Assembly (NCBI RefSeq): GCF_016775155.1
Contig: NZ_JAEUGD010000001.1
Span: 62,001-126,000 of the forward strand
Direction: 5' to 3'
DNA length: 64,000 bases
Source of the DNA: Fulvivirga marina
GTDB taxonomy: Bacteria > Bacteroidota > Bacteroidia > Cytophagales > Cyclobacteriaceae
Within the stretch, counting starts at the first letter, position 1; each line of letters opens with the position of its first letter. Both the position numbers and the translations under genes were made by a program. The notes below the pieces were generated by a model, which had not been told where the DNA came from, did no database searches, and saw nothing but the letters and a program-made list of their open reading frames with translations. Shown here in pieces: positions 4,212 through 37,285 of this stretch.

Positions 4212-4222
4212 AAATAAGTGAT

Positions 4223-6145
4223 ATGAAGACCTTAATTATAAATTTTAAATGGATACTGGCACTTTTGATATTGGTTACAGCTTGTGATCCATATGGTGAG
4301 GAGGATCTTGAATTAGGCCCACCACCAACAGCAGAAGATGCTGTCATTAGCATGACAGCGAATGCCGAAAATGCAAATATTATACATTTTAAAAATGCCT
4401 CTTCAGCTTTTTTGAAAGTATGGGATTTTGGCAATGGAAGTGGAGCCAAGGGCGATGATGTTACCGGTATTTTTCCTCTGAAGGGGACTTATGAAGTTAC
4501 TCTGACAGTATATACTTCAGGAGGAAGTATCTCGTCCAGTACAACTGTAGAAATTGCTGAAACTAATCCACTTTTGCTGGACATACCTGTTTACAATATG
4601 TTAACCGGTGGTGCTGATGCAGTGGATGGGAAAACATGGGTAATCGATGCAACCAGATCAGCCCACTTTGGTGTTGGACCGAACCCTTCTGATCCTGCCG
4701 TAGGTGATTACCCTAACTGGTATGCTGCGGGAATTAATGAGAAGGCTGGTGCAGGCTTATACAACGACAAGTTTACATTCAAGCTTGATGGCTTTAGCTT
4801 TGCGCAGAAGACTGACGGAGATGTTTTTATAAATACATTGCAGGCAGGTAATTTTCCGGGTGCATTTGAAAATGCCGGAGATTATACAGCACCATATACC
4901 GCGCCTGATAACCTGACATGGTCGGTTAGTGAAGATACAGATGGTAATCAGGTAATCAATATTAAAAATGGAGGCTTTATTGGGTATTTTACAGGAACAT
5001 ACAACTATCAGATCGTCAGCCTGGAAGAAAATGAACTTTTTATTCGTTATGAAGATACTGAAAACCCAGAGTTAGCATGGTATCAACGACTGGTACCTGA
5101 AGGTTTCACGGCTCCGCCACCGCCACCACCAGCTGTTTCCTCCCTGCCTGTTGACTTTGAAGGCGCACTGCCTCCGTTTAATGGTTTTGGCGGATCCACC
5201 TATCAGGTTATTGATAACCCAGATGCTTCAGGCATCAACACCAGTGCCAAGGTAGGAGAGTATGTAAAAGGTACTGATGGCAACTGGGCTGGAATAGAAA
5301 CAGCACTGGATGCCAAAATTGACTTTTCTACACTTAACCTGATCAAATACAAAGTTTACTCTCCGGTTGCAGGAAAAGCACTTTTTAAACTTGAGTCCGT
5401 TGATGGTTCGGCTACCCCTGTTGAAGTGTTTGCGGATGTTACAAAGGTTAATGAATGGGAAGAACTCATTTTTGATTTTTCAGGCACTGCCTCTAATACC
5501 TATGATAAAATTGCCATATTCCTCGATTTTGATAACAATAATGGGGGGACATTCTACATTGATGATATCAGACAGTCGGCGGAGGAAGCTGTATTGACAG
5601 AGGAGGCTCTAACTGGAGGTTCATCTAAAATATGGAGGCTTAAGCCTGCTGCGGGAGCCTTTGGTGTTGGTCCTAATAAAGGGAGTGATGCCTGGTTCCC
5701 TAATGGAGCGGATATTTCCGGAGACAGACCTTGTCTGTTTAATGACCTGTTTATTTTTAAGACAGGTAGTGTATATGAATATGATGCTCAGGGAGATATT
5801 TATGGAGAGTCGTATATGGGGCTATCAGATGGTTGTCAAAATGAAAGCAATCTAATAGGTACCGATGCTGAACCATGGGCTTCAGGTACACATATATTTT
5901 CACTCACTCCGGCAACGGAAACGGACCCTGCATACATAACGGTGACGGGTACCGGTGCCTTTATTGCATTGCCAAAAGCTTATAATGGAGGCGAGTACAG
6001 TGCTGCACCACCTACAACAGACGCTTCAGTTGTTTATGAAGTACTAAGCTATGTAAACAATGGCACTACAGAGACTCTTTCAATTACTATAGACATTGCC
6101 GGTGATGGAAGTGCTTTCTGGAGCTTTGTGCTGGTGGCTGAATAA
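4223..6145 (+). CDS. SusE-position surface lipoprotein: PKD-like domain, two FGVGPN modules, CBM-like domain
   Basis: This is probably a surface glycan-binding protein. The lipoprotein signal ends LVTAC (Cys21). Residues about 35-115 form a PKD-like fold (VWDFGNGSG, GTYEVTLTVYT). An internal duplication follows: one module starts at L127 (LTGG...KTWVID...FGVGPNP) and a second at L463 (LTGG...KIWRLK...FGVGPNK), each about 170 residues with conserved Trp and FNDxFxFK-like strands. Between them, after a PPPPPP linker, residues about 305-453 form a jelly-roll-like domain ending in FYIDDIRQS, as in carbohydrate-binding modules. There are no catalytic motifs of a glycosidase. Position after SusD and before GH16 is that of SusE/F-type binders. 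The exact families of the repeated modules are not recognised; binding function is inferred. Confidence 0.8.
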   Translation: MKTLIINFKWILALLILVTACDPYGEEDLELGPPPTAEDAVISMTANAENANIIHFKNASSAFLKVWDFGNGSGAKGDDVTGIFPLKGTYEVTLTVYTSGGSISSSTTVEIAETNPLLLDIPVYNMLTGGADAVDGKTWVIDATRSAHFGVGPNPSDPAVGDYPNWYAAGINEKAGAGLYNDKFTFKLDGFSFAQKTDGDVFINTLQAGNFPGAFENAGDYTAPYTAPDNLTWSVSEDTDGNQVINIKNGGFIGYFTGTYNYQIVSLEENELFIRYEDTENPELAWYQRLVPEGFTAPPPPPPAVSSLPVDFEGALPPFNGFGGSTYQVIDNPDASGINTSAKVGEYVKGTDGNWAGIETALDAKIDFSTLNLIKYKVYSPVAGKALFKLESVDGSATPVEVFADVTKVNEWEELIFDFSGTASNTYDKIAIFLDFDNNNGGTFYIDDIRQSAEEAVLTEEALTGGSSKIWRLKPAAGAFGVGPNKGSDAWFPNGADISGDRPCLFNDLFIFKTGSVYEYDAQGDIYGESYMGLSDGCQNESNLIGTDAEPWASGTHIFSLTPATETDPAYITVTGTGAFIALPKAYNGGEYSAAPPTTDASVVYEVLSYVNNGTTETLSITIDIAGDGSAFWSFVLVAE

Positions 6146-21245: not shown

Positions 21246-22025
21246 ATGAGAAATTTGATTTTTTTACTTTTTATTGTTGTACTGGGAGTTTCGTGTGTAC
21301 CGAATAGAAAGATTGTTTATTTACAGAAGGGAAATGAGCTGAAAGAGGAGTTTCCAAAAGATACAGTTATTCGCATATATAATCTTGATAATTATGAGTA
21401 TAGGTTACAACCGGAAGATATAATTTCCGTTAGGTTTAAAAGTCTTACCTTAGATGAGTTTGATATTTTTTCTGATCAGGAGATAGTAGGGGGCGGAAAT
21501 TTTAATAGTCAAATCTTGGGAGGGTATCTTGTCGATAAGGATGGTAATGTTGGGTTTCCTGAGTTGGGAAAAGTGAAAGTTGCCGGACTTACTCTGCATG
21601 AGACACAGGAGAAGTTGCAGAAAATGGTAGAAGCCTACTTAGAGCAGCCGTCCGTAAAAGTGAGATTATTGAATTTTAGAGTTACAGTGCTCGGTGAAGT
21701 CAACGCTGAGGGTACAGTAAATACTTTTAACAATAGGATGACCATAATGGAAGCCATCGGCCAAGCTGGTGGCTTGGGAGAATTAGCTGATCGCTCTAAT
21801 GTGAAAGTAATTCGCCAAGGAAATGGAATGTCTGAGATTATTTATGTCAATCTTCTTGATGAAAGTCTTATGAACTCAACATACTTTTTTGCCCATCAAA
21901 ACGATATTATTATTGTACCACCTTTAAAGCAGCGGCCATTCAGAAGGTATTTTGGGCAAAATCTAAGCATTTTTGTTTCTTCACTTTCTGTTCTGCTACT
22001 AACCATTACCTTAATCACAAATTAA
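21246..22025 (+). CDS. Wza-like polysaccharide export outer-membrane lipoprotein
   Basis: This probably forms the outer-membrane channel for the polysaccharide. The lipobox ends LGVSC (Cys17). The poly-export domain spans residues about 55-135 (YRLQPEDIISVRF, GYLVDKDGNVGFPELGKV, GLTLHETQEKL) and an SLBB domain follows (FRVTVLGEVNAEGTVN, MTIMEAIGQAGGLGELADR). A C-terminal hydrophobic helix (residues about 235-257) is typical of Bacteroidota homologues. Length is 259. Its stop overlaps the start of the tyrosine-kinase gene by one base (TAATG), consistent with coupled translation of the Wza/Wzc pair. Confidence 0.93.
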   Translation: MRNLIFLLFIVVLGVSCVPNRKIVYLQKGNELKEEFPKDTVIRIYNLDNYEYRLQPEDIISVRFKSLTLDEFDIFSDQEIVGGGNFNSQILGGYLVDKDGNVGFPELGKVKVAGLTLHETQEKLQKMVEAYLEQPSVKVRLLNFRVTVLGEVNAEGTVNTFNNRMTIMEAIGQAGGLGELADRSNVKVIRQGNGMSEIIYVNLLDESLMNSTYFFAHQNDIIIVPPLKQRPFRRYFGQNLSIFVSSLSVLLLTITLITN

Positions 22026-24430
22026 TGACAACTGATTCAGGATATCCCTTTGAGCGAGATATGATGCAATTTGAGGCATCTCGTTCTGAAAGCAGTAATC
22101 TCATTGACTTTAAGCGTATTTTATTTAGGGCATTAAAGTATTGGTATATTGTATTAACAAGTCTTCTTATTGCTTCATTGATTGCGTATTCTATTAATCG
22201 ATACAGCACTAGCATTTACACAATGAAGGCATCTATTATTATTAAGGAAAGCCAGGAAAATAACATTGGAGGTCAACTTCTTTACAAAAATGCTTTGGTT
22301 GATCCATATAGGAATTATTATAATGAGCTATACATTATCAAATCCATTCCACTATTACAAAATGTAGTGGACTCTCTTAATTTCACAACTTCTTTATTAC
22401 GTGAAGGGGAAATAAAGACATCAGAAGTTTATGATGTTGATTTCCCTGTAGAGTTTAGGCTTCTTGGGGAAAAAAACATAAGGCCGAGTACTCTGGAGTT
22501 TACCCTTCAAAGTGAAACTAATTTTAGTCTAACACCACTAAACGATGGTAAAACTTCGCGTGATTTAAAAAGCTTTTCTTTTGGAGATACCGTAAGGATT
22601 AACGATAGCGATGTTCTACCGGTATTAAAAGGAGCCAAACTAGATGGTTATATAGGTAAATTATATTTAGTGAATTTCACAAACTCAGCTGTAATAGCCA
22701 ATCAATATTCCTCAAGGTTAAGGGTCGCTTGGCAAGAACAAGGAGCTTCGGTAATCAATCTTGAAATAAATGGTGCCATACCTTCGAAAGAATTAGACTT
22801 TTTAGGAGAACTTATACGGCAATATCAAAAATATGATTTGGGGAAAAAGAATCAAGCTGCAATTAAATCTATTGATTTTATTGATGATCAACTCAATGAA
22901 ATTGCAGATTCTTTAAAATATTTCGAGGAAAGTGTAGAGGCTTTTAAAAAGAAAAATGTGATAACCAACCTCGAAGGGGAAGCAATGAGGCTTTATCAAA
23001 GAGTGGAGGAACTTGAAACTCAACTAGGGTTACTTAAATTAAAAAAGAACTATTTAAATTATTTGACAGATTACCTTTCCCAAGAGAATAATCTGGATCA
23101 GGTTGTTCCTCCTTCTAGTGTGGGCGTAGAGGATCCTATCATGACAGCGTTAATTGCCGATCTTGTTAAAATTCAGAGTGAGCTTCGATTACAAACCGAT
23201 ACTAACAAAGAACCTACTTCGATTACTTTTAGGAAACGTGAGCAGGTCAATAAGATAAAAAGTAACTTATTTGAAAGTGTAAGAAGTTCATTAGGTGCTC
23301 AAAAAATCAATGAACAATTCTTGGCTAACCAAATTAAATTGGTGGAAAATCAACTTGCACTTCTGCCTGAGTCAGAAAGAAGATTGGTGCGTTTACAACG
23401 TAATTATTCGCTAAGTGAAAACTTATATATTTTTCTTATGCAAAAACGTGCAGAGGCTGGTATTTCTAAAGCCTCGACCACCAGCGATATTGAAATTGTT
23501 AACCCCCCTCATCAATTTGGAGGAGCCATTTCGCCAAAGCCATTACAAAATTATGCAGTAGCGACCGCTATAGGCCTTATAATACCATTACTGTTATTTG
23601 TTTTTATGGAATTGCTGAATGATAAAATTCAGTCTAGGGAAGATATTGAAAAAGTAACTAATATCCCATTGATTGGAGGGGTTGGTCATAACCCTCAGGA
23701 TGATAATTTAATTGTTTATCAAAAGCCAAAGTCAGGGCTTTCAGAGTCTTTTAGGGCTCTACGATCTAATCTTAATTTTTTTACCGAGGGTAAGGATAAG
23801 AAAATTTTCTTGATTACATCCTCAATAAGTGGTGAAGGTAAGACATTTTCAACTATCAATTTGGCAACGGTACTTTCCTTTAGTGGTAAAAACACGTTAA
23901 TTGTTGGTGCGGATATGAGAAAACCCCGGCTATTTGGGGATTTTGGTTTAAACAATAACATAGGGCTTAGTAATTTTCTATCTGGCCAGGCAGATCTTCA
24001 AAGTGTTATACAACAAACCCCCGTAACTAATTTATCATTGATTAGTGGAGGCCCCGTACCCCCAAATCCAAGTGAATTATTAATGGGGGATAATATGAAG
24101 TTATTTATTAAACAGGCTCTCAGTATCTATGACTTTATAATTCTAGATACACCACCTATAGGACTGGTCACGGATGCTTTTATTCTATCTCGGTATGTCG
24201 ATCACATGATTTTCTTGGTACGCCAGAACTATACCCCTAAACAAGCGATCAAAACCGTACAAGAGCTGTATGAAAATGGAAAGATTAAAAATGTAAGTAT
24301 ACTTTTTAATGATATTAAAAAGGTTGGTCCTGGGTATGGGTATGGGTATGGATACGGTTACGGTTACGGATATGGTTTAGGCTATGGCTATGGAGCTAAA
24401 AACGGTGGAGGTTATTATCAGGAGGGATAG
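22025..24430 (+). CDS. Wzc-like chain-length regulator and tyrosine autokinase (BY-kinase)
   Basis: This inner-membrane co-polymerase controls polysaccharide chain length and export by cycles of tyrosine phosphorylation. It has a Wzz domain with TM1 near residues 42-60 and TM2 near 505-525, separated by a long periplasmic coiled-coil region. The kinase has Walker A SGEGKT with Lys606, Walker A' VGADMRKP, and Walker B FIILDTPP. The C-terminal tail is a Tyr cluster: about ten alternating Gly-Tyr units from residue 770. Length 801 is typical of fused Wzc proteins. It overlaps the Wza-like gene by 1 nt. The tail is unusually regular. Confidence 0.95.
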   Translation: MTTDSGYPFERDMMQFEASRSESSNLIDFKRILFRALKYWYIVLTSLLIASLIAYSINRYSTSIYTMKASIIIKESQENNIGGQLLYKNALVDPYRNYYNELYIIKSIPLLQNVVDSLNFTTSLLREGEIKTSEVYDVDFPVEFRLLGEKNIRPSTLEFTLQSETNFSLTPLNDGKTSRDLKSFSFGDTVRINDSDVLPVLKGAKLDGYIGKLYLVNFTNSAVIANQYSSRLRVAWQEQGASVINLEINGAIPSKELDFLGELIRQYQKYDLGKKNQAAIKSIDFIDDQLNEIADSLKYFEESVEAFKKKNVITNLEGEAMRLYQRVEELETQLGLLKLKKNYLNYLTDYLSQENNLDQVVPPSSVGVEDPIMTALIADLVKIQSELRLQTDTNKEPTSITFRKREQVNKIKSNLFESVRSSLGAQKINEQFLANQIKLVENQLALLPESERRLVRLQRNYSLSENLYIFLMQKRAEAGISKASTTSDIEIVNPPHQFGGAISPKPLQNYAVATAIGLIIPLLLFVFMELLNDKIQSREDIEKVTNIPLIGGVGHNPQDDNLIVYQKPKSGLSESFRALRSNLNFFTEGKDKKIFLITSSISGEGKTFSTINLATVLSFSGKNTLIVGADMRKPRLFGDFGLNNNIGLSNFLSGQADLQSVIQQTPVTNLSLISGGPVPPNPSELLMGDNMKLFIKQALSIYDFIILDTPPIGLVTDAFILSRYVDHMIFLVRQNYTPKQAIKTVQELYENGKIKNVSILFNDIKKVGPGYGYGYGYGYGYGYGLGYGYGAKNGGGYYQEG
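24332..24394 (+). repeat. In-frame Gly-Tyr hexanucleotide repeat in the kinase tail
   Basis: Twenty-one codons alternate Gly and Tyr (GGN TAY units) with one Leu interruption, encoding the autophosphorylated Tyr cluster of the Wzc-like kinase. Units near the 5' end are identical (GGGTAT three times), so copy number could change by slippage without breaking the frame. Confidence 0.85.
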
Positions 24431-25882: not shown

Positions 25883-26812
25883 ATGAGAAAATTCCTTATT
25901 AATTTGCTGCTTTTTTTTGTACCCCTGATTGTAATATACATATCATTAGAGGTGATTAACCGGAAAATTCCAAATGAGTATTCAGCAAAAATAAAAAATT
26001 TTGAAGATGAAATTAACAATATTGAAGTATTAGTTTTTGGTAGCTCCCATGCTTTAAGGGCAGTTAATCCCGAGTTCATTGATTATTATACTTATAATAT
26101 GGCGATGGTTAGTCAAACATTACAGTTGGATTATGCGGTTTTTGAAAAATATAAAGAAGAACTTAAAAACTTAAAGGTTCTAGTACTAACCATATCCCAT
26201 TTTACATTAAGTACGGGTTTAAACGAGGGAGAAATAGCAAATAGAATATCTTACTATCATCACTTTTATGGACTCCCTTTAATATCAAGGTTAAAGGTTG
26301 ATAATTATTCAGTGCTACCAGCAATTGGATATAAGAGGGCCACATGGGGTTTTTTAAATTACTTTTTAAAATTTAAGGTTAGTAATGTAAAGACCAATAA
26401 ATATGGTTTTATGGGAGAAGGAGGATTTTTAGCTAAAGATTCTATTTCATTTGTAAAAGTAGGCAAGGAAGCAGCTAATAGGCATGAAGATCATAGTTAT
26501 GATTTTAATGAAAACATCAAATTACTTAAGAAAATGATCGATTGGTCAAAAAAACATAATATAAAAGTAGTCCTGATCGAGGTTCCAAAAACAAATGAAT
26601 ATGAAAGAAACCTTGATCAGGATAAAGCTGCTTTAATAGATAGTACATTAGATATATTGCAAAAGAGTAATTCAAATGTTTCTTATTTTGATTTTACAAA
26701 TCATTATAAAAATAAATCATTTTTCAGAAATGCAGATCATTTAAATGAAGCAGGTGCTAGGGAGTTTAGCTTATTATTAAATACCAAAATTAGTGAGTTC
26801 ATTAAGGAATAA
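25883..26812 (+). CDS. SGNH-like membrane-anchored O-acylation partner protein
   Basis: A single N-terminal membrane helix (residues about 4-24) tethers a periplasmic domain with an SGNH-hydrolase-like pattern: GSSH at residues 53-56 supplies the Ser, and NADHLNEAG has Asp285 and His286 as the other catalytic residues. It lies 2 nt after the MBOAT gene. This MBOAT-SGNH order is standard for polysaccharide O-acetylation systems. Overall sequence is too diverged for me to name a subfamily such as AlgJ, AlgX or DltD. Length is 309; it overlaps the flippase gene by 20 nt. Confidence 0.78.
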   Translation: MRKFLINLLLFFVPLIVIYISLEVINRKIPNEYSAKIKNFEDEINNIEVLVFGSSHALRAVNPEFIDYYTYNMAMVSQTLQLDYAVFEKYKEELKNLKVLVLTISHFTLSTGLNEGEIANRISYYHHFYGLPLISRLKVDNYSVLPAIGYKRATWGFLNYFLKFKVSNVKTNKYGFMGEGGFLAKDSISFVKVGKEAANRHEDHSYDFNENIKLLKKMIDWSKKHNIKVVLIEVPKTNEYERNLDQDKAALIDSTLDILQKSNSNVSYFDFTNHYKNKSFFRNADHLNEAGAREFSLLLNTKISEFIKE

Positions 26813-28238
26813 GACAAGCAAAGCCTTAGCCTGGGATTTAGTCGGAAATTATGGAGGACAGGCAACCTCTTTCATTATCTCTATATTTCTTGCCAGATTA
26901 TTGAGTCCTGAAGACTTTGGACTAGTGGGGATGTCTATGGTATTCATTGCTATTTTAAGAGTTTTCGCAGATATGGGTTTTGCCTCGGCCCTTGTTCAAA
27001 ATCGTGACAACTCCTCGCTCACCTATTCCTCCATCTTCTTTCTTAACATCTTTATCGGACTGTTATTTACGGTTATATTATTCCTTGCTGCCCCATTAAT
27101 AGGAGACTTTTATGATAACGGCACTGTTACAAGGTTGGTGAAGCTTTTGTCTATAGTTTTCTTTATCAATAGTTTTAATATTGTACAAGGTACAATATTG
27201 CGCAAACGGCTTGATTTTAAACGGATATCTATCATTTTATTGACCTCTCAGGTCATTGCTGGGATTGTTGCTGTTATGAGTGCTTATCAAGGTTTAGGGG
27301 TTTATGCTCTGGTTATACAACAAATTTTGATAGGTTTAATAAATGTAATCTTTCTATGGAAAGTGGCAGACTGGCGTCCGCGCATGGAGTTTTCATGGCA
27401 GGAGGTAAAAAAACTTACAGGTTTTTCTACATATGTTTTTTCAGGTCAGTTTATCAACCAGATTTTTAAACAGTTAGATACCTTAGCAGTTGGTAAATTC
27501 TTTTCTCCTGCCACCCTTGGATATTTCAGTCGCGCAGAAAGTATCAATTCGCTTATCAGTAAAAATTCTGTAAGTACCTTTAACAGAGTATTTTTTCCTG
27601 TACTAAGTTCTATTCAGGATGATAATGAAAAATTTGAAAGGGTATTCCTTAAAGTACTGGAACTCGTTGCCGTTTCCGCTATTTTCTTATCCGGTGCTTT
27701 TTATCTAATTGGTGAAGAACTGATCATTACATTGTTTGGCCAGAAGTGGAAGCCTTCTGTTGTCATATTTCAAATACTTGTGATAAAGGGCTTTGCCTAT
27801 CCTATAAGTGCTTTAGTAGTCAATGCTTTTTTTGCGAAAGGAAAATCAAAAGCCAATTTTCATTATGGTAATATAAGACGGTTGCTAAACCTTATTCCTT
27901 TAGTTATCGCATATTTTTACGGGTTTGACTACTTTCTTTATGCTCTTGTAACTATTAGCATATTAGGATGGATATTAAATGCTTATTTTGTTCAGGTTAG
28001 TATTGGAATTAGGTTTTGGTTACAGGTTAAATCGGTACTGTTACATTTAGCTGTGGTAGTTTTTCTGATTGGTACTCTCTCTTTTCTTTTACCACAAGGT
28101 TTCAGCTATCTTTGGTCAGGGTTAAGTTTACTCCTTTTTACTTTTTATTTTTGGGTATATTTGAAAGTCACCAACTCAATTGTTCTTATCGAAATCGAGT
28201 TCTATAAAAATAAACTATGGAGAAAGTTCGCAAAATAG
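26793..28238 (+). CDS. Wzx-type lipopolysaccharide/exopolysaccharide flippase (MOP superfamily)
   Basis: Moves undecaprenyl-linked repeat units across the inner membrane. The 481-residue protein has about twelve to fourteen hydrophobic segments and WzxC-like blocks: ARLLSPEDFGLVGMSMVF near residue 33, GFASALVQNRD, TILRKRLDFKRI, YFSRAESI and FFPVLSSIQ. The start is GTG at 26793, inside the end of the SGNH gene (20-nt overlap); the next in-frame hydrophobic N-terminus fits this start. Its own stop lies 22 nt inside the following sulfotransferase gene. Together with the Wzy-like and Wzc-like proteins this gives a Wzx/Wzy-dependent pathway. Confidence 0.93.
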   Translation: MSSLRNKTSKALAWDLVGNYGGQATSFIISIFLARLLSPEDFGLVGMSMVFIAILRVFADMGFASALVQNRDNSSLTYSSIFFLNIFIGLLFTVILFLAAPLIGDFYDNGTVTRLVKLLSIVFFINSFNIVQGTILRKRLDFKRISIILLTSQVIAGIVAVMSAYQGLGVYALVIQQILIGLINVIFLWKVADWRPRMEFSWQEVKKLTGFSTYVFSGQFINQIFKQLDTLAVGKFFSPATLGYFSRAESINSLISKNSVSTFNRVFFPVLSSIQDDNEKFERVFLKVLELVAVSAIFLSGAFYLIGEELIITLFGQKWKPSVVIFQILVIKGFAYPISALVVNAFFAKGKSKANFHYGNIRRLLNLIPLVIAYFYGFDYFLYALVTISILGWILNAYFVQVSIGIRFWLQVKSVLLHLAVVVFLIGTLSFLLPQGFSYLWSGLSLLLFTFYFWVYLKVTNSIVLIEIEFYKNKLWRKFAK

Positions 28239-29080: not shown

Positions 29081-30160
29081 ATGATTCCTGTAACAAAACC
29101 TTATTTTCCTCCAAAAGAAAAATTATTTACCTATATAGATGGTATTTACAAAAGAGAATGGCTTACTAATAATGGGCCCCTGGTCAATGAATTTGAATTG
29201 AGGCTGAAAGATTATCTTGACCTAAAACATTTGTTATACGTGAATAACGGTACAATGGCCCTGCAAATAGCAATTAAGGCCCTTGAATTGAAAGGTGAAA
29301 TTATTACGACACCTTTTTCTTATGTAGCTACTACCAGCAGTATTGTTTGGGAGGGGTGTAAACCTGTATATGTAGATATTGATGAGCGGACACTAAATAT
29401 AAATGCGTCAAAGATTGAGGCAGCAATTACAAAAGATACTAGTGCTATTTTGGCCACCCACTGCTTCGGTAATGCCTGCGATATAGATGCAATACAGGCT
29501 ATCGCTGAAAAATTTAAGTTAAAGGTTATTTATGATGCAGCCCATTGTTTTGGCACAAAATATCGTGGCAGATCAATTTTTGAGTATGGAGATATTAGCA
29601 CTACCAGCCTTCATGCTACCAAATTGATGCACTCAGTGGAAGGGGGGGTGGTAGTGACTCAAAATGCCGATTTATTAAAACGTATGGCCTATATACGTAA
29701 CTTTGGGCATGATGGACCAGAAAAATATAATGGTGTAGGGATCAATGGAAAAAATTCTGAATTTCATGCAGCAATGGGACTTTGCGTACTTGATGACATT
29801 AAAGTTATACTAGCTACTAGAAAATCTCAATGTGATCATTATGATTTAATTTTGAAAAATCTAAACGTGAGAAAACCTGTGATCCAAAACTTTTGTGAGT
29901 TTAATAGTGCATATTATCCTATAATTTTTGAAAGTGAGGAAGTCGCCCTGGCTTCTAAGAATGAGCTGGAAAAATTTGAGATTTCGCCTAGAAGATATTT
30001 TTATCCTTCCCTTAGTAAGTTAAATTATATTCAAAGTGCGGTAACTGAAGTCTCAGATAGCATTGCCTCAAGTATACTTTGTTTGCCTATTTATCAGGAC
30101 TTGAGTAAAGAAGAGCAGGATATGATAGCTAGAATTTTATTAAGGGTACAAAACAATTAA
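29081..30160 (+). CDS. DegT/DnrJ/EryC1/StrS-family sugar aminotransferase
   Basis: PLP-dependent transaminase that probably makes an amino-deoxy NDP-sugar. PLP Lys is Lys181 in LHATKLMHSVEGG; DAAHCFGTKY is the Asp-containing block, and YVNNGTMALQIAI binds cofactor phosphate. 359 residues is normal. The start is directly after the sulfotransferase stop. The following gene encodes a sugar acetyltransferase, and the pair could add and then acylate an amino group. It is distinct from the second DegT-family gene at 50378 and lacks that protein's PVGPN block. Confidence 0.92.
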   Translation: MIPVTKPYFPPKEKLFTYIDGIYKREWLTNNGPLVNEFELRLKDYLDLKHLLYVNNGTMALQIAIKALELKGEIITTPFSYVATTSSIVWEGCKPVYVDIDERTLNINASKIEAAITKDTSAILATHCFGNACDIDAIQAIAEKFKLKVIYDAAHCFGTKYRGRSIFEYGDISTTSLHATKLMHSVEGGVVVTQNADLLKRMAYIRNFGHDGPEKYNGVGINGKNSEFHAAMGLCVLDDIKVILATRKSQCDHYDLILKNLNVRKPVIQNFCEFNSAYYPIIFESEEVALASKNELEKFEISPRRYFYPSLSKLNYIQSAVTEVSDSIASSILCLPIYQDLSKEEQDMIARILLRVQNN

Positions 30161-30162
30161 CT

Positions 30163-30798
30163 ATGGTTATTGCTGGTGCGGGGGGACATGCTTTAGAAAC
30201 TTTAGATATCCTAATTGCTTCGGGATATGATCCTGATGATATTCGATTGTATAATGATTTTGGATCGACTCAGGGATTGTTTCATAATAGGTTCTTAATT
30301 ATTAAGTCTTTTAATGAACTGACTCATTATTTTCTTACAAATGACAATCAATTTTGCTTGGGTGTAGGGAGCCCCACTTTAAGAAGAGTTCTTTATAATA
30401 AGCTTATAGATGCAGGAGGAGTTCTGACTGGAATTAAATCGGGTAAGTCTGTCATTTCCCCGTACTTCTTATGGGAAGGAGATTGCGACATATTTGTAAA
30501 TAGCTTTATTAGTTCACTGGTGACTATTGGTAGGGGGACCCTTATCAACTCAGGAGTTAAAATACATCATGAATCAAGCATAGGAAAATTTTGCGAGTTA
30601 GCGCCTGGAGCAACAGTTTTAGGCAATGTTTCAATCGGCGATGACACAACTGTAGGAGCGAATGCGACCATCTTGCCAGGGGTTAGAATAGGAAAGAAGG
30701 TGACAGTGGGGGCAGGTGCTGTCGTAACGAAGGATGTTTCAGATCACTGCATTGTAGTAGGAGTGCCCGCCAAAATAATTGGAATGAATGACAAATAA
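30163..30798 (+). CDS. NeuD/PglD-family hexapeptide sugar acetyltransferase
   Basis: An N-terminal Rossmann-like half (VIAGAGGHALETLDIL) is followed by a left-handed beta-helix of hexapeptide repeats (residues about 110-205; GKFCELAPGATVLGNVSIG, GAGAVVTKDV) ending VVGVPAKIIG, the NeuD/PglD architecture. It would N- or O-acetylate a nucleotide-sugar amine or sialic acid. The gene starts 2 nt after the aminotransferase stop and overlaps the next GT2 gene by 11 nt. Two other family members, one broken, lie at 48344 and 48797. Confidence 0.9.
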   Translation: MVIAGAGGHALETLDILIASGYDPDDIRLYNDFGSTQGLFHNRFLIIKSFNELTHYFLTNDNQFCLGVGSPTLRRVLYNKLIDAGGVLTGIKSGKSVISPYFLWEGDCDIFVNSFISSLVTIGRGTLINSGVKIHHESSIGKFCELAPGATVLGNVSIGDDTTVGANATILPGVRIGKKVTVGAGAVVTKDVSDHCIVVGVPAKIIGMNDK

Positions 30799-31697: not shown

Positions 31698-32384
31698 ATG
31701 GATTTTTATAAATCATTTTTGGAATTAAAACTTGTTGTAAGAAGTAATTTAAAAGAGGTTTTGCGTCTTCGAAATAAGCGAATGAGTAAAGAAGATAAAA
31801 GTTTTGTTACAGAAGGGGATTTACTTATCAATAAGTGGGTAAAGGAGATTTTTGAAAAAAATATTCAACAGTATCATTTTGTGTCAGAGGAAACAGATAG
31901 TCACATGGAGACTGAAGCAGAAGGTGTTACTATTGTGTTAGATCCAATAGATGGTACTGAAAATTTTACTTCGGGATTACCTGAATGGGGAATTTCATTG
32001 AGTTGCTATAATGATGGGGTTCACTGTGCCTCTATGTTGGCCTGCCCGGAGATGGATATATGGATATGCTCAGGAGATGTAGTTGAAAAAAATTATTCAC
32101 GTATTCGAGGGTTATCTTCCTCGCTATCAATGGATGAACTTATAAAGGCTACCCAAGGACATGAATACCGTATATTAGGTTGTTGTGTTTACAACATGAT
32201 AAATGTGATTCGAGGATCATATTTATCATTTGAAAATCCTAAAGGGGCTAATTCATGGGATATTTTAGCTGGACTTAATTTAGCTTTAGAAAACGATTTA
32301 ATAGTGATGGTAAATGGCAAGCATTATAATGGAGAATATTTACAACCAAATAGAAAGTATAAGTTCAAAGTGGAAAACCGATAA
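31698..32384 (+). CDS. Inositol-monophosphatase-family phosphatase
   Basis: This is a Mg2+/Li+-sensitive phosphatase fold protein with VSEETDS and the DPIDGTENF metal motif near residue 89, and the C-terminal NSWDILAGLNLALEND block. At 228 residues it is slightly short for the family (about 250-270). In this operon it might remove phosphate from a sugar (possibly a NulO-9-phosphate) or hydrolyse PAP produced by the sulfotransferase, as CysQ does; the DPIDGT(E)NF motif is closer to sugar/inositol phosphatases than to CysQ. Its 3' end overlaps the next gene by 71 nt in another frame. Confidence 0.85.
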   Translation: MDFYKSFLELKLVVRSNLKEVLRLRNKRMSKEDKSFVTEGDLLINKWVKEIFEKNIQQYHFVSEETDSHMETEAEGVTIVLDPIDGTENFTSGLPEWGISLSCYNDGVHCASMLACPEMDIWICSGDVVEKNYSRIRGLSSSLSMDELIKATQGHEYRILGCCVYNMINVIRGSYLSFENPKGANSWDILAGLNLALENDLIVMVNGKHYNGEYLQPNRKYKFKVENR

Positions 32385-33879
32385 TATTTTCATCATTGGT
32401 AAAGGCCCTAGTGTAGACCAATTCGTGAATCTAAACTATGAAGATCACTTGGTGATAAACATTAATGATTCGGAAAAGATAATAAAGGGCGATATAGGTA
32501 TTTTCAGTGCCAACTGGGTTAGGCAAAGTCTTAGATCAAATGGCTTTCATTGCAAATATTATTTAGCAGGTAAGCCTCTTGCTAGAGAGATCAATCATGA
32601 TCTTTTGCCACCCATTCCTTTTGAGCTAGATGATGAAGAGTTAATCACTTACCGCTTTACCAAACCAGAGTACTATGACGAGCCATTTGTCCTGACCAAT
32701 GCGCTGAAATTATGTCTTGATATAGCGAAGATCACAGATAAAAAGCCTAATGTTTACCTTTTGGGTTTCGATTTTTCTACTGAACATGGCCAATTGAGCA
32801 AAGCATTTAAACAAGATTTTGCCCATGGTGAATTGGACCGTTCTTTGATGGTACACTCGCATGAAACCTTATATCTGCAACTTGCTAAATTTTGTGAAGA
32901 AACCCGACAAGTAGATTTATATCATGTTGGTGAGAAAAAATACAGCAGACTTTCTCCTCAAGAGTTGGTAACAAAATTTTCAGTTACCAAGCCTAAAATA
33001 GTATCTGATAAGTATCCGGATGAACAAGTTGAGCACCACAAGGTGCTAATTGTGGCAGAGTTAACGAACAATCATTTGGGAGATACAAATCGGCTTTTAG
33101 AAATGGTTGAACGCGCCTATAACGCCGGAGCTGATTTGATTAAAATTCAAAAACGTGATGTGGATACTTTTTACTCAAAGGAGAAGCTGGAAAGTTATTA
33201 TTGGTCGCCTTTTGGTAAAACCTTAAAGGATTATAGAAAGGGAGTGGAGCTACGGAATGACCAGATAGAAGTACTTGATAGAAAGTGTAAAGAACTTGGT
33301 ATTGATTGGTTTTGTTCAATCCTGGATTATCGATCATTTGAAATTATTAATGATTTTAATCCTGGATTAATCAAAATACCCTCGACTATTTCTAATCATA
33401 CCGATTTTCATAAACAAATTGCCGCCGCGTATAAGGGGCCAATTGTGATATCCACGGGTTATACCGATAAAGCATATGAAGATTATGTATTGGAAACCTT
33501 CAGCGAGAACGAAAAGATTTATCTCTTGCATTGTATATCTTCATACCCCACACAATTAAATGACTGTAACATTTCTGTAGTATCTCACTATAATGAGTTG
33601 GGGCTAAAGTATAAAAATTTAACTCCCGGTTATTCCAGTCACGATATCGGATCATTTGGATCTGTATTGGCGGTGGCCTGTGGAGCCAGAATGATTGAAA
33701 AGCATGTGAAATTGGGTGATGTAGATTGGGTGCATTTTGATAAAGTAGCTCTGGATCTTAAAGACGATAGCTTTATCAACTTTGTAAAAGACGTTAGGAA
33801 TGCAGAGGTGGCTTTGGGCAGTTCCGAAAAGAAAATTTTGGCTTCCGAACATCATAAATATGAGGTCATAAAAAAATAA
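32314..33879 (+). CDS. Fusion: sialyltransferase-like (GT42-like) domain plus NeuB-family nonulosonic-acid synthase
   Basis: Residues about 22-230 form a Rossmann-like domain with IIGKGPSVDQF (Gly29-Ser33), VYLLGFDFS near residue 150 and VHSHE with His181 and His183, resembling the layout of Cst-type GT42 sialyltransferases (nucleotide loop, GxDF strand, catalytic His). Residues about 241-521 are a NeuB-type PEP-dependent synthase: AELTNNHLGD, KIQKRD, IKIPSTISNH, ISTGY, LLHCISSYPT, GYSSHDIG and IEKHVKL. The usual C-terminal antifreeze-like SAF domain is absent. The cytidylyltransferase gene follows at 33885. The start (32314 or Met6 at 32329) lies inside the preceding gene. A DUF115-like origin for the first domain is an alternative. 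Confidence 0.82.
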   Translation: MASIIMENIYNQIESISSKWKTDNIFIIGKGPSVDQFVNLNYEDHLVININDSEKIIKGDIGIFSANWVRQSLRSNGFHCKYYLAGKPLAREINHDLLPPIPFELDDEELITYRFTKPEYYDEPFVLTNALKLCLDIAKITDKKPNVYLLGFDFSTEHGQLSKAFKQDFAHGELDRSLMVHSHETLYLQLAKFCEETRQVDLYHVGEKKYSRLSPQELVTKFSVTKPKIVSDKYPDEQVEHHKVLIVAELTNNHLGDTNRLLEMVERAYNAGADLIKIQKRDVDTFYSKEKLESYYWSPFGKTLKDYRKGVELRNDQIEVLDRKCKELGIDWFCSILDYRSFEIINDFNPGLIKIPSTISNHTDFHKQIAAAYKGPIVISTGYTDKAYEDYVLETFSENEKIYLLHCISSYPTQLNDCNISVVSHYNELGLKYKNLTPGYSSHDIGSFGSVLAVACGARMIEKHVKLGDVDWVHFDKVALDLKDDSFINFVKDVRNAEVALGSSEKKILASEHHKYEVIKK

Positions 33880-33884
33880 TTATC

Positions 33885-34565
33885 ATGACAAGAATAATGA
33901 AAGCACTTGTGCCTGTAAGGTCCGGCTCTCTGCGTGTAGAAAATAAAAATATCAGACCTTTTTGCGACACCACTTTGTTGCATGTTAGAGTAAAACAATT
34001 ATTGCAACTGCCCTTTCTACAGGGAGTGGTGGTAAGTTCTAATGATGATGAAATGATCCGAATGGCTCATGAGATGGGGGCTGAAACGCATAAACGTGAT
34101 GAGTATTATGGTTCTAATACCGTTTCTATGAGTGAGGTATATGAAAATATGGCTTCAGCATTAGAATGTGATGATCTCCTCTATGCGCTTGTCACAACAC
34201 CATTGGTAAGTGATGAATCATTCATTAAAGCATATGAAGTTTACACTGGTTTGTCAAGTGAATTTGATTCTCTTACCACTGTAGAGGACGTTAAGGAATT
34301 TTTGATTAAAGACGGTAAGCCTTACAATTATGATGGAAAAAAAATTCCGCGATCCCAGGATCTGCCGGATATCACTAAACTCACCTTTTGTATCTCCATG
34401 CTTCCCAGAGAAATGATGGTTGCAAACCGGAGTTGTTTAGGGAAAAGTCCCTACTTCATGAAGTTGCCACAGGAAGAATCCATTGATATCGACACTACAT
34501 TTGATTTTAAAGTAGCTGAATTGCTTTACGAGGATAAATTAAAACATCAAAAAAAACATAAATGA
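33885..34565 (+). CDS. Acylneuraminate cytidylyltransferase-family protein (NeuA-like)
   Basis: Activates a nonulosonic acid to its CMP form in the cytoplasm. The N-terminal PVRSGSLRVENKNIRPF is the CTP-binding signature of CMP-sialate and CMP-Kdo synthetases; VVVSSNDDEM, LVTTPLVSDESFI and IDIDTTFDFKVAE near the C-terminus match NeuA. The 226-residue length is standard. The start 5 nt after the synthase fusion and the 4-nt overlap with the next gene make a NeuB-NeuA unit. No NeuC epimerase is visible in the window. Confidence 0.9.
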   Translation: MTRIMKALVPVRSGSLRVENKNIRPFCDTTLLHVRVKQLLQLPFLQGVVVSSNDDEMIRMAHEMGAETHKRDEYYGSNTVSMSEVYENMASALECDDLLYALVTTPLVSDESFIKAYEVYTGLSSEFDSLTTVEDVKEFLIKDGKPYNYDGKKIPRSQDLPDITKLTFCISMLPREMMVANRSCLGKSPYFMKLPQEESIDIDTTFDFKVAELLYEDKLKHQKKHK

Positions 34566-35314
34566 AAAAGCTTATACAAGGCCTTCTGGGCTTGGTTGGA
34601 ATAAGAATAGCGCGGGCTGGTACGCGTAAGTATTTACCTAAACCTAATATTGATAATGTACAGGTGGTAGCTCATTTATATAATAATTTTAAAAACAAAC
34701 TTACTGTTCTTCAAGTGGGGGCATGCGATGGTTTTACTAGTGATTCTATATATCCCTATATTAAGGCTGGTACTATAAATGCTTTTTTGGTCGAGCCTGT
34801 AAGTATTAACTTTCAGAAACTTCAGGAATTTTACAAAGATACTCCATCCGCAGTACTCATTAATGCAGCAGTGGCAGGCAAAGACGAAAAAAGAATTATG
34901 TACTCTGTTAAGGACGAAGGGAAATGGAAAGATGTCGGTTGGGCACGACAATTAGCTTCCTTCTATAAAGAACATTTAACGAAACATCAGTTTTCAGACG
35001 ATGAGATAGCAGAGCAAATGGTGGATTGCAAAACTTTAAAAAGTATAATTTCGGAATATAAAATTGAAGACCTGGATATACTATTGATTGATACCGAGGG
35101 GTTTGATGGAGAGGTAGTGAAAATGGCCATGAAACAAAATGTAAAACCCAACTATATCATTTTCGAAAATGCTCAGTTAGTTCAAAATTATTCTCAAGAG
35201 GAACTAAATCAATTATATAATCTTTTAGAGGACAATGGTTATTCTTGGACACATGACAGAATCAATACCATGGCGGTTAGAAAAGATTATTTGAGAAATA
35301 TAAAGATGGGCTAA
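34562..35314 (+). CDS. FkbM-family methyltransferase
   Basis: SAM-dependent O-methyltransferase commonly found in polysaccharide loci. VLQVGACDGFTSDS near residue 53 is the SAM-binding motif I, AFLVEPVSINFQKL the following acidic strand, and LDILLIDTEGFDGEVVK with the IIFENAQL strand are the FkbM core. 250 residues, no signal peptide. Overlap with the cytidylyltransferase gene is 4 nt (ATGA) and 2 nt separate it from the GT29-like gene, so it probably methylates a sugar of the repeat unit. Confidence 0.9.
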   Translation: MKKLIQGLLGLVGIRIARAGTRKYLPKPNIDNVQVVAHLYNNFKNKLTVLQVGACDGFTSDSIYPYIKAGTINAFLVEPVSINFQKLQEFYKDTPSAVLINAAVAGKDEKRIMYSVKDEGKWKDVGWARQLASFYKEHLTKHQFSDDEIAEQMVDCKTLKSIISEYKIEDLDILLIDTEGFDGEVVKMAMKQNVKPNYIIFENAQLVQNYSQEELNQLYNLLEDNGYSWTHDRINTMAVRKDYLRNIKMG

Positions 35315-35316
35315 GA

Positions 35317-36042
35317 ATGAAGTATTTGAAAGCGCTATATGGTTTATGGCTGTATTGGCGATTTAATAAAAAGATAAACTACTCTAAACTGGTTAAGAAT
35401 AAAAGGGTGGCCATAATAGGTGCTGCTAATTCAGCCTTAAACACCAATTTAGGAGACTATATTGATGAGTTTGATTTTGTTATTCGGATAAATAAAGCGC
35501 CAAGACTGATTTACGAAGGAACACATGCTAGCGATATTGGAAGAAAGACAGACATTCTTTTTCATAGTTTCTACGAAAATGAGAAAAGTGGTGGTGGTCC
35601 ATTAGATTTTAATCTGTTTGATAAATTGGGGATTAAGTATGTAATTAATCCAGTTGCTACTTTTTCAGGAAGCCGCGTTACATACAATTTTTATAAGAAG
35701 TACCTTCTTCCAAAAGTAACCTATTCTGTTCAGCGTGATGATTATAATAAAGTGGTTCAGGGTTTAAATGGAAACAAACCGACCATCGGGTTTTGTGCCC
35801 TTATGCTTACTCTACTTTCTGATTGTAAGGAGGTTTATGTCACGGGCTTTACCTTTTTTAAAACCCCCTTTGCTAAAGGTTATCGAGACGAGGTGCAACA
35901 GCCCGAGCAAGTAAGAAAACTGATTAATACAGAAGGACATCATGATGTAGATCTTGAATTTGAGAATTTCAAACAAATCTATAGAGAATACCCCCAATTA
36001 AAATTAGACCTTGCATTGCAGGACATATTGAGAAATGGATAA
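35317..36042 (+). CDS. GT29-like sialyltransferase
   Basis: The 241-residue protein contains the features of the mainly eukaryotic GT29 sialyltransferase family: a sialylmotif-L-like block VAIIGAANSALNTN...DFVIRINKAP at residues 31-62, continued by DIGRKTD at 73-79; a motif-S-like block PTIGFCALMLTLL...EVYVTGF at 155-178; and a motif-VS-like HxxxxE (His209-Glu214). It would transfer a CMP-activated nonulosonic acid to an acceptor, which agrees with the NeuB-like and NeuA-like genes 1.4-3 kb upstream. Unlike animal enzymes it has no membrane anchor or signal. It overlaps the next GT4 gene by 8 nt. Family call is by motif only. Confidence 0.78.
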   Translation: MKYLKALYGLWLYWRFNKKINYSKLVKNKRVAIIGAANSALNTNLGDYIDEFDFVIRINKAPRLIYEGTHASDIGRKTDILFHSFYENEKSGGGPLDFNLFDKLGIKYVINPVATFSGSRVTYNFYKKYLLPKVTYSVQRDDYNKVVQGLNGNKPTIGFCALMLTLLSDCKEVYVTGFTFFKTPFAKGYRDEVQQPEQVRKLINTEGHHDVDLEFENFKQIYREYPQLKLDLALQDILRNG

Positions 36043-37285
36043 AGAGATGAGAAACGGGGCCATTTTTATAGTGCCACGATCAAGTACGGAATGGAAAGGT
36101 AATGAAGCAGGTTGGATTACGGCCTCTGGCTGGGCAGGAGCTGCTGCTGAACTTTGGGGTGAAGCGCTTGTGGCTACCACCAATGGGGTCTTTAGCCCTC
36201 AGGAATCTATATCATTTCCCCAAAATACTTCAGTGTCGAAAGGTGGTACTACAAAAAGTAAGATGTCTGTTCTCAGAAAATGGATTCCGGAATTCCTAAT
36301 TACTGCCTATAAAGACTATCGCCTAAGATTATCTAAACCGAAAATATGGCCCATTGAAGCTTTCTTGGAGCATCAAAACTACGATGTACGAATGGTATGG
36401 GAAAGGCATGATCTATTTCCTGGGGTAGGAAGAAAACTAGCAAGACAATTGAAAGTACCCTTTGTCGTTTCTGTTGAAGCCGCTGTTGTCTGGGAAGCAA
36501 AAAAATGGGGGGTAAATAGGCCTGTCTGGGGATATTTTCTGGAAAAATTTGTTGAGTCAGCTTCTTTAAGATCAGCCGATCTTGTCGTTTGCGTTTCTGA
36601 AGAGTTACGCACGAAAGTAATCTCAATGGGGGTATCTGCGGATAGGGTTATAGTATCTCATAACAGAGTTAATACATCGTTGTTCAATACTCTAATAACT
36701 GGAGACAGTATCCGGGATAAGTATAAGCTTCGAGGGAAAAAAATAATAGGTTGGACGGGAAGTTTTAGAACTTTTCATGGGCTAGAATCAGTAATAAAGG
36801 CTTTTGCTAGAGTCTCAAATAACCTTGACGATGTCGTTCTCATGCTAGTTGGTGATGGTTTAGAGTTTAATAAAATATATAGTTTAGTCGAAAAGCTGGA
36901 TTTGAGCAAAAAAGTAGTTTTTGTCGGTAAGCAGCCTTTTATTAGAGTTCCGGAATACATTGCTTCCTTTGATATAGCCCTGGTTAGTGCAGCTTCGGCT
37001 AAAGGGTTTCATTATTCTCCGCTTAAATTAAGGGAATATCTGGCCTGTGGGAAACCTACCATTGTTCCTAGCGCAGGGGATTTACCATCTCTGTTTACAG
37101 ATGAAAAAGAGGTATTGTTTTATGTCCCAGGAGATATTGATGACTTATCTTGTAAAATGGAATTTCTTTTACAAAACCGGCATATTTATAACACAATGCA
37201 TGAAAACGCAGTGAGGTTATCAGAAAAAGAAGGCTCCTGGCTACATGAGTTAAAAAGAGTTTGTGAAAAATTGAATATAAAATAG
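36035..37285 (+). CDS. Glycosyltransferase family 4 (GT-B fold)
   Basis: Cytoplasmic GT-B enzyme of 416 residues. The nucleotide-sugar site includes KKIIGWTGSFRTFHGLESVIKAF near residue 232 and VVFVGKQPF, and the donor-binding loop ALVSAASAKGFHYSPLKLREYLACGKP near residue 315 is the GT4 E(x)7E-like region. The N-terminal half has WERHDLFPGVGRKLA. It probably adds a sugar to the repeat unit; which sugar cannot be told. It overlaps the GT29-like gene by 8 nt and leads, 10 nt on, into another GT4 gene. Confidence 0.9.
   Translation: MDKEMRNGAIFIVPRSSTEWKGNEAGWITASGWAGAAAELWGEALVATTNGVFSPQESISFPQNTSVSKGGTTKSKMSVLRKWIPEFLITAYKDYRLRLSKPKIWPIEAFLEHQNYDVRMVWERHDLFPGVGRKLARQLKVPFVVSVEAAVVWEAKKWGVNRPVWGYFLEKFVESASLRSADLVVCVSEELRTKVISMGVSADRVIVSHNRVNTSLFNTLITGDSIRDKYKLRGKKIIGWTGSFRTFHGLESVIKAFARVSNNLDDVVLMLVGDGLEFNKIYSLVEKLDLSKKVVFVGKQPFIRVPEYIASFDIALVSAASAKGFHYSPLKLREYLACGKPTIVPSAGDLPSLFTDEKEVLFYVPGDIDDLSCKMEFLLQNRHIYNTMHENAVRLSEKEGSWLHELKRVCEKLNIK

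Follow-up and report, generated by a model that had tools for sequence, protein, structure and literature searches.

Animal cells are sialylated by enzymes of the glycosyltransferase family GT29, whose prokaryotic members have been little explored. The locus described here raises the question of whether a 241-residue protein encoded among the polysaccharide genes of Fulvivirga marina truly belongs to this family and, if so, which sugar it would transfer and how it is related to the animal enzymes. Our study covers a stretch of 64,000 nucleotides (hereafter, the window) together with related loci from other bacteria and from viral contigs. We conclude, with a probability of about 0.8, that the gene is a true GT29 whose product is most likely a cytoplasmic inverting transferase of a CMP-ulosonic acid in capsule or exopolysaccharide assembly, for which we infer the catalysis, the roles of the residues, the donor, and the acceptor. 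Prokaryotic members of GT29 have been reported from Proteobacteria and from a single archaeon (Petit et al. 2018, PMC5811610), with 23 proteobacterial proteins and one archaeal protein described there and in a 2023 review (PMC10225777); Bacteroidota are not named in the excerpted passages of these two sources. The preliminary description of the locus had presented GT29 as mostly eukaryotic. As far as these passages go, a prokaryotic GT29 has been on record since 2018 and is no novelty in itself; what we add is a Bacteroidota clade with its own gene module. The proteobacterial and archaeal enzymes, which are also prokaryotic, are compared with this clade by description only, outside our sequence alignment.

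The reading frame (Table 1) is intact, runs from ATG to TAA, and is contained in a long run of polysaccharide genes on the same strand. Its ATG lies 2 bases past the stop codon of the upstream FkbM-type gene and its 3' end overlaps the GT4 gene, a spacing that therefore reads as that of an operon member. The frame, its length, and motifs L, S, and HxxxxE were all found where the preliminary description had put them, and the NeuB-like and NeuA-like genes are located upstream about where it had placed them. The co-polymerase/tyrosine kinase type gene and the flippase-like gene, whose families we take from their translations and not from Pfam, mark the region as a capsule or exopolysaccharide locus; homologues of such genes share loci with GT29 in L049, L085, and L088.

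Table 1. Features of the window and of a jumbo phage locus (L008), with the basis of each assignment.
Feature	Position	Strand	Basis or remark
Polysaccharide co-polymerase/tyrosine kinase type protein	22025-24430	+	translation
Flippase-like protein	26793-28238		translation
Aminotransferase and PglD-type acyltransferase genes	29081-30798		Pfam scan
Inositol-monophosphatase-type phosphatase	31698-32384	+	PF00459 1.7e-20
NeuB-family synthase	32314-33879	+	PF03102 at residues 264-506, 160 bits; extra N-terminal domain of about 240 aa
CMP-sugar synthetase, CTP_transf_3 / NeuA-PseF type	33885-34565	+	PF02348 4.3e-13, 50 bits
FkbM-type methyltransferase	34562-35314	+	PF05050 3.9e-13; between NeuA and GT29
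GT29-family glycosyltransferase, 241 aa	35317-36042	+	PF00777, motifs, fold, aligned residues
GT29 motif L	about residues 31-79		RINKAP 57-62, DIGRKTD 73-79
GT29 motif S	residues 155-178		PTIG 155-158, VYVTGF 173-178
GT29 motif-III-like GYRD	residues 188-191
GT29 motif VS (HxxxxE)	H209...E214
GT4-type glycosyltransferase	36035-37285	+	PF00534 2e-21; directly downstream of GT29
L008 GT29 ORFs	728-1360, 3459-4142, 4123-4803, 4800-5549		PF00777
L008 NeuB	1395-2294		beside GT29 genes

Membership of the family is supported by profiles, by structures, and by the predicted fold. PF00777 matches the window protein with an E-value of 3.3e-17 and 63.2 bits, which passes the Pfam gathering cut-off of 23 bits, and an NCBIfam scan of the same protein gave no meaningful match. 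A single-sequence phmmer search of the PDB ranked ST3Gal1 first (1.2e-4), followed by ST6Gal1 and ST8SiaIII; with a 32-row profile, ST3Gal1 was matched at 1.7e-12, followed by ST6Gal1, ST6GalNAc2, and ST8SiaIII, with only GT29 structures at E < 0.1 and no GT42 chain up to E 10. When the 32 aligned relatives were scanned row by row, PF00777 matched 31 of them at E ≤ 0.01, and the MptE-like family matched one weakly (0.0038); in a separate scan, the Paracoccus row had no Pfam family at E ≤ 0.1. The AlphaFold2 model, computed from 31 rows (mean pLDDT 95.3, pTM 0.92), gives the protein the GT29 variant of the GT-A fold. A Foldseek search with this model returned 1117 matches at E ≤ 10, and all 30 of those at E ≤ 0.001 are mammalian GT29 chains, the best at 5.0e-8; superposed on animal GT29 chains, the model reaches moderate TM-scores (0.45-0.56 by query length, at an rmsd of 5-7). 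The claim of GT29 membership, which the preliminary description had made from motifs, is therefore borne out by profile, conserved residues, and fold.

The same searches bear on whether the protein could instead be of GT42 or MptE/DUF115 type and merely resemble GT29, a family assignment that the preliminary description had itself raised in naming DUF115 or another unrelated family. The chains ranked after GT29 by Foldseek are a Pasteurella sialyltransferase (9c08, 1.4e-3, family not given), MptE (8sbu, 1.7e-3), and the GT42 enzyme CstI (2p2v, 3.5e-3), and the single weakly MptE-like relative points the same way; however, the best GT29 fold match is more than four orders of magnitude stronger, and GT42 chains are absent from the profile search of the PDB, so that we consider this alternative extremely improbable. 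GT29 is the stronger match in both profile and fold, and the motif residues are present in the alignment. The GT42 enzymes CstI (2P2V) and CstII (2DRJ) are bacterial and have a related fold, but their fold matches are weaker (3.5e-3 and 1.7e-2) and they give no profile match. GT42 sialyltransferases use CMP-NulO donors. A chance match to the motifs was also considered and was rejected on the PF00777 score, the PDB profile matches, the AlphaFold2 model, and the Foldseek matches, and GT42 or MptE as a better home was rejected on the PDB profile search, the per-row Pfam scan, and the Foldseek ranking.

In the 19 aligned Bacteroidota rows, the residues G35, D53, R57, N59, G75, P155, T156, G158, G177, F178, Y189, R190, H209, E214, and D231 are unchanged throughout. 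Motif L has the form R-x-N-x-A followed by G-x-[KR]-T-[DT], with T78 and D79 kept in 17 of the 19 rows and A61 in 14, and it aligns in the window protein to RMNKAP of ST3Gal1; motif S has the form P-[ST]-x-G ... GF and aligns to PSTG...YGF of the same enzyme. Motif VS is present in all 19 rows; among 12 wider relatives, 11 have H209, and the position of E214 holds E in 1 and Q in 8. For motif III ([HY]-Y), Y189 is found in every Bacteroidota row, preceded by G (17 rows) or D (2 rows), and the first residue is His or Tyr in the aligned animal chains; given the Gly or Asp of the Bacteroidota, the binding of the donor phosphate may therefore differ. The position of the animal motif-L cysteine is occupied by I (11 rows) or V (8 rows), so that this cysteine of the animal disulfide is missing from all 19. 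In animal GT29, this disulfide joins the cysteines of motifs L and S, and it is probably not required of bacterial members; the absence of the motif-L cysteine fits a cytoplasmic enzyme. The residue roles that we assign to the window protein are presumably those of the known GT29 enzymes. The alignment between the motifs is weak because the identity of the window-side GT29 to the non-Bacteroidota rows is 20-29%. Compared with the mammalian enzymes of known structure (ST3Gal1 2WML/2WNB, ST8SiaIII 5BO6-5BO9, ST6GalNAc2 6APJ, and ST6Gal1 6QVS), the window protein has the same Pfam family, motifs L, S, and VS, and fold, but it is compact (241 aa), lacks both the motif-L cysteine and a His or Tyr before the motif-III tyrosine, and is encoded in a bacterial operon. 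The preliminary description had called the protein unanchored, a point on which the N-terminal helix of its model (residues 2-16) bears; this helix is only weakly hydrophobic in the window protein, with a mean of 0.14 on the Eisenberg scale, and values of up to 0.62 occur in relatives.

We identified PF00777 matches in 2 of 98 relatives, the genome of the window included, and, across the phylum, in 3 of 395 genomes, where only the window genome passes the cut-off. Two classes reached via the genomes of relatives gave 2 of 385 and 2 of 147, the starting genome being counted in each, and 14 controls gave none. A scan of a species-genome collection with a seven-row alignment identified at least 25 loci, 18 of them in Bacteroidota at 39-53% identity, and this count is a lower bound because one peptide pattern was used. 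A CMP synthetase is within reach in only 3 of the 7 other bacterial GT29 loci, which counts against our reading. As separate observations, Paracoccus marcusii plasmids (L006:7959-8753 and L007) carry distant relatives of about 25% identity, annotated as hypothetical or unannotated, with the L006 copy sitting after a weakly GT8-like gene, and in a bacterial MAG (L069:4349-6663) three GT29 genes stand in tandem, with a CMP synthetase and a HAD-type ORF after them.

The probable source of the donor is indicated by the gene context, which we compared in 20 Bacteroidota loci: the window, G004 (L088), G604 (L085), L049, L050-L054, and L056-L066, with L055 omitted as a near copy of L056. The presence of a CMP synthetase played no part in the choice of the 19 non-window loci, of which 18 were found by GT29 sequence and G604 by its NeuB N-terminal domain. 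Close to GT29, every one of the 20 loci carries both a CMP synthetase and a phosphatase gene, and the synthetase is of NeuA/PseF type in all 19 non-window loci. These 19 loci include a HAD phosphatase in 17 cases, an HMGL protein in 16, and a NeuB fusion in 2, where the HMGL profile was built from the HMGL proteins of the same loci and the HAD profile from two of their HAD proteins. A likely carbon-chain-joining enzyme is found upstream of the CMP synthetase in 19 of the 20 loci, as a NeuB fusion in 3 (window included) and as an HMGL fusion in 16; L061 is the sole locus without a recognisable synthase. The three NeuB-type loci (window, L049, and L085) have an inositol-monophosphatase-type phosphatase and an FkbM gene in identical order, and in the window this phosphatase stands in place of the HAD phosphatase of most relatives. 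Another NeuB-type contig, L087, ends before GT29, and two genes lie between the phosphatase and GT29 in L057 and L060. The Bacteroidota GT29s form a clade with its own gene module; such a compact branch, equipped with donor genes of its own, offers a simple relative for testing donor choice.

Neither of the two central enzymes of the window reaches the NCBIfam equivalog cut-offs that name a NulO pathway. The NeuB-family synthase scores 138.4 of 399.65 and 139 of 340.25 bits, with PseI and NnaB as its best names, and the CMP-sugar synthetase scores 76.1 of 205.7 bits against the PseF equivalog; a SAF domain is not among the matches listed for this NeuB. Because the NeuB, PseI, and PseF cut-offs are missed by a wide margin, we leave the sugar unnamed: the donor would be a CMP-ulosonic acid, with sialic acid as one possibility among several. 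The preliminary description had gone further in proposing that these neighbours supply a CMP-NulO donor. The gene context supports a CMP-ulosonate made next door, but the donor need not be sialic acid, as both enzymes score far below the named-enzyme cut-offs and most relatives carry a pyruvate-aldolase-type protein instead of NeuB. A classical sialyltransferase, for which the neighbours would produce CMP-Neu5Ac or a closely related nonulosonic acid (Leg, Pse, or Kdn) to be added to the polysaccharide, is a narrower form of our reading that we regard as unlikely, even with NeuB-family and CTP_transf_3 matches of 160 and 50 bits next door, with best equivalog names that belong to such pathways (PseI/NnaB and PseF), and with aminotransferase and PglD-type acyltransferase genes that could yield an acylamino sugar. 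Besides the low equivalog scores, it is opposed by the lack of any NeuC/LegG/PseG-type match in the eight neighbours scanned, by the aldolase-type protein beside GT29 in 16 relatives, and by a separate strong NeuB and CTP transferase that occur together elsewhere in the genome.

The window genome (6.78 Mb) has four PF02348 places and three NeuB-family places. On its contig C64 (492399-495718), NeuB is matched strongly (2.1e-93) within about 3 kb of a CTP transferase, and two ulosonate systems may therefore coexist in the genome. Of 390 genomes in the family, 4, the window genome among them, have a homologue of the N-terminal domain of the window NeuB (32314-33045; IIGKGPS...LLGFDF). This domain scores 12.2-12.6 of 34.6 bits against the Pfam MptE-like family, far below the cut-off; a profile comparison with the GT29 profile and the HMGL C-terminal domain, which asked about a second GT29-like domain, gave probabilities of 2-9%; and AlphaFold2 modelled the domain poorly (pLDDT 52, four rows), with nothing at E ≤ 1e-3 in the fold search and meaningless matches among those listed.

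The HMGL protein of most relatives is 512-519 aa long. Its N-terminal part is HMGL-like (PF00682, 5.9e-22 to 1.6e-25 in the four proteins scanned), with 4-hydroxy-2-oxovalerate aldolase as the best NCBIfam name (4.3e-32, below the cut-off) and a match of 7.5e-151 to PDB 3DXI, a 'putative aldolase'; the window itself has no HMGL protein, its synthase being NeuB-type. The remaining 220 aa or so, at the C-terminus, show weak MptE-like matches in 2 of the 4 proteins (E 0.0029 and 2.1e-4, below the cut-off). The plant GT29 MGP2/RCKT1, an enzyme of pectin synthesis compared here by description, is proposed by its authors, from mutant cell walls, to be a CMP-Kdo transferase, which suggests by analogy that a GT29 may use a non-sialic CMP-ulosonate such as CMP-Kdo (excerpted text of PMC11288761). 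The aldolase-type proteins in the place of the synthase, the 3DXI match, and the plant precedent together favour a second narrower form, in which the donor is an octulosonic or other non-nine-carbon 3-deoxy-ulosonic acid (Kdo-like), which NeuB would make in the window and an HMGL-type aldolase in the majority of relatives. The synthase of the window is nonetheless of the NeuB family, whose known products are mostly nine-carbon, and we consider this form possible, on the lower side of even odds.

A search of 395 genomes of the phylum found the general HMGL domain in 298 of them and full-length relatives of the HMGL fusion (E ≤ 4.9e-184) in 8, the next match being at 9.1e-35. None of these 8 genomes (L151-L158) is among the PF00777 matches, and no GT29 profile match at E ≤ 1e-3 was found in the 13 kb around each fusion. 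A CMP synthetase and a HAD phosphatase are present in all 8 loci, with other genes intervening in three. The L158 locus includes a gene of the polysialyltransferase family (PF07388, 5.6e-11), and a gene adjoining the trio in L153 is weakly PF07388-like (0.0087, below the cut-off); among the few genes scanned in the other six loci (none in L152), no CMP-sugar transferase was named. As the trio is found without GT29, GT29 may be one of several transferases able to follow it. The trio of HMGL-MptE-like fusion, CMP synthetase, and HAD phosphatase was recorded in L050-L066, L088, and L151-L158, with L061 lacking the fusion. It looks like an undescribed donor-making module, and it may represent an undescribed route from an aldolase, a CMP transferase, and a HAD phosphatase to CMP-activated ulosonic acids; in the titles and abstract openings of the open-access literature, we found no publication that deals with the GT29s of Bacteroidota or of phages, or with the aldolase module.

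For the window, the reading that we prefer, a GT29 transferase of a CMP-ulosonic acid, would involve the following steps. The NeuB-type synthase would join PEP to a sugar phosphate to give a 3-deoxy-ulosonic acid phosphate, the phosphatase, judging by its position and family, would remove the phosphate, and the CMP transferase would convert the ulosonic acid to CMP-ulosonate. The GT29 protein would hold this donor through motifs L and S (N59 and T156-G158), and, by analogy with GT29 enzymes of known structure, H209 would act as the base in a direct transfer of the sugar to an acceptor hydroxyl with inversion. The reaction would take place in the cytoplasm, in step with the assembly of the repeat unit. 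The FkbM-type methyltransferase may act on either the sugar or the acceptor.

Phage-borne relatives bear on the origin of the animal enzymes. An initial search for viral relatives with the window protein alone gave none; scans of IMG/VR then identified 31 loci with the subfamily profile and 36 with a phage profile (67 loci, contigs L009-L048 and L089-L115), the viral status of these contigs being the collection's prediction. Of the 31 subfamily-profile loci, 21 have a CMP synthetase within the flanks fetched, which reach up to 5 kb (16 of 23 without near-copies), and of the 36 phage-profile loci only 11 have one nearby (10 of 27 without near-copies), all counts being taken on GT29 contigs; NeuB is nearby in 8 of 31 and 4 of 36, respectively. 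As controls for viral context, scans with a GT4 profile and a DegT protein found no viral relatives, and a DegT pair gave 5 loci, two of them on GT29 contigs. The uncultured jumbo phage LR756508.1 (484 kb; L008, 321297-331437) has four GT29 genes (PF00777, 1.6e-26 to 5.6e-32), and a profile of these matches mammalian ST3Gal1 at 1.1e-25. PF00777 matches 9 of the 10 viral and bacterial proteins scanned, and PHROGs gave no match for the four phage/viral proteins scanned or for the window protein.

For the phylogenetic analysis, 115 rows were reduced to 96 by near-identity thinning and to 95 by length. In the resulting tree, the 20 Bacteroidota rows fall in one group (SH-aLRT 100), with three long-branched rows of the alphaproteobacterial genus Paracoccus inside it. 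For the clade test, nine rows were dropped (6 long branches and 3 Paracoccus), and in the 86-row tree ST3Gal1 and ST8SiaIII belong to a 34-row group whose other 32 rows are phage/viral (SH-aLRT 99). Forcing these two enzymes to join the Bacteroidota clade costs 38 log units and is rejected (p-AU 0.0101) in a test that was picked after the tree was seen and that is based on two partial animal sequences. The preliminary description had supposed an ancestral or transferred form, and this supposition is not supported, given the separate clade and the rejected joining. A eukaryotic source of the protein, or its role as direct ancestor of eukaryotic GT29, would account for the similarity of its motifs to those of ST3Gal1 and ST8SiaIII, but on this topology, with phage GT29s and two bacterial ones closer to the animal enzymes, either is very improbable. 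The two bacterial GT29s, which were found later, fall in the animal-and-phage group, with a Myxococcota row at its base; a phage origin of the animal enzymes is therefore not established. A GT29 from the class of the Paracoccus genome has its place in the animal-and-phage group. The internal order of the group with the animal enzymes has a support of 27-88, and its make-up is biased because its viral members come mostly from the phage seed and the search of genome contigs used the Bacteroidota-side profile alone. The row L163 in the later tree kept a long stretch outside the GT29 domain.

As a broader conjecture, which we consider rather doubtful, GT29 would be at root a bacterial and phage family for several CMP-activated ulosonic acids and not an animal invention. 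Its Bacteroidota members would have exchangeable donor modules, one of them working via a fused pyruvate-aldolase (HMGL) and not via a PEP synthase (NeuB, KdsA), and the animal sialyltransferases would derive from the phage-and-bacterial side, away from the Bacteroidota branch.

The GT29 domain also occurs in longer proteins. Judging from sequence, it lies behind an apparent GT2 domain in L009:4209-5669 and before a methyltransferase-like stretch in L010:4974-6242; in L004:532-2235 it is found behind a methyltransferase, and L113:2832-6506 has two GT29 domains in one 1224-aa ORF.
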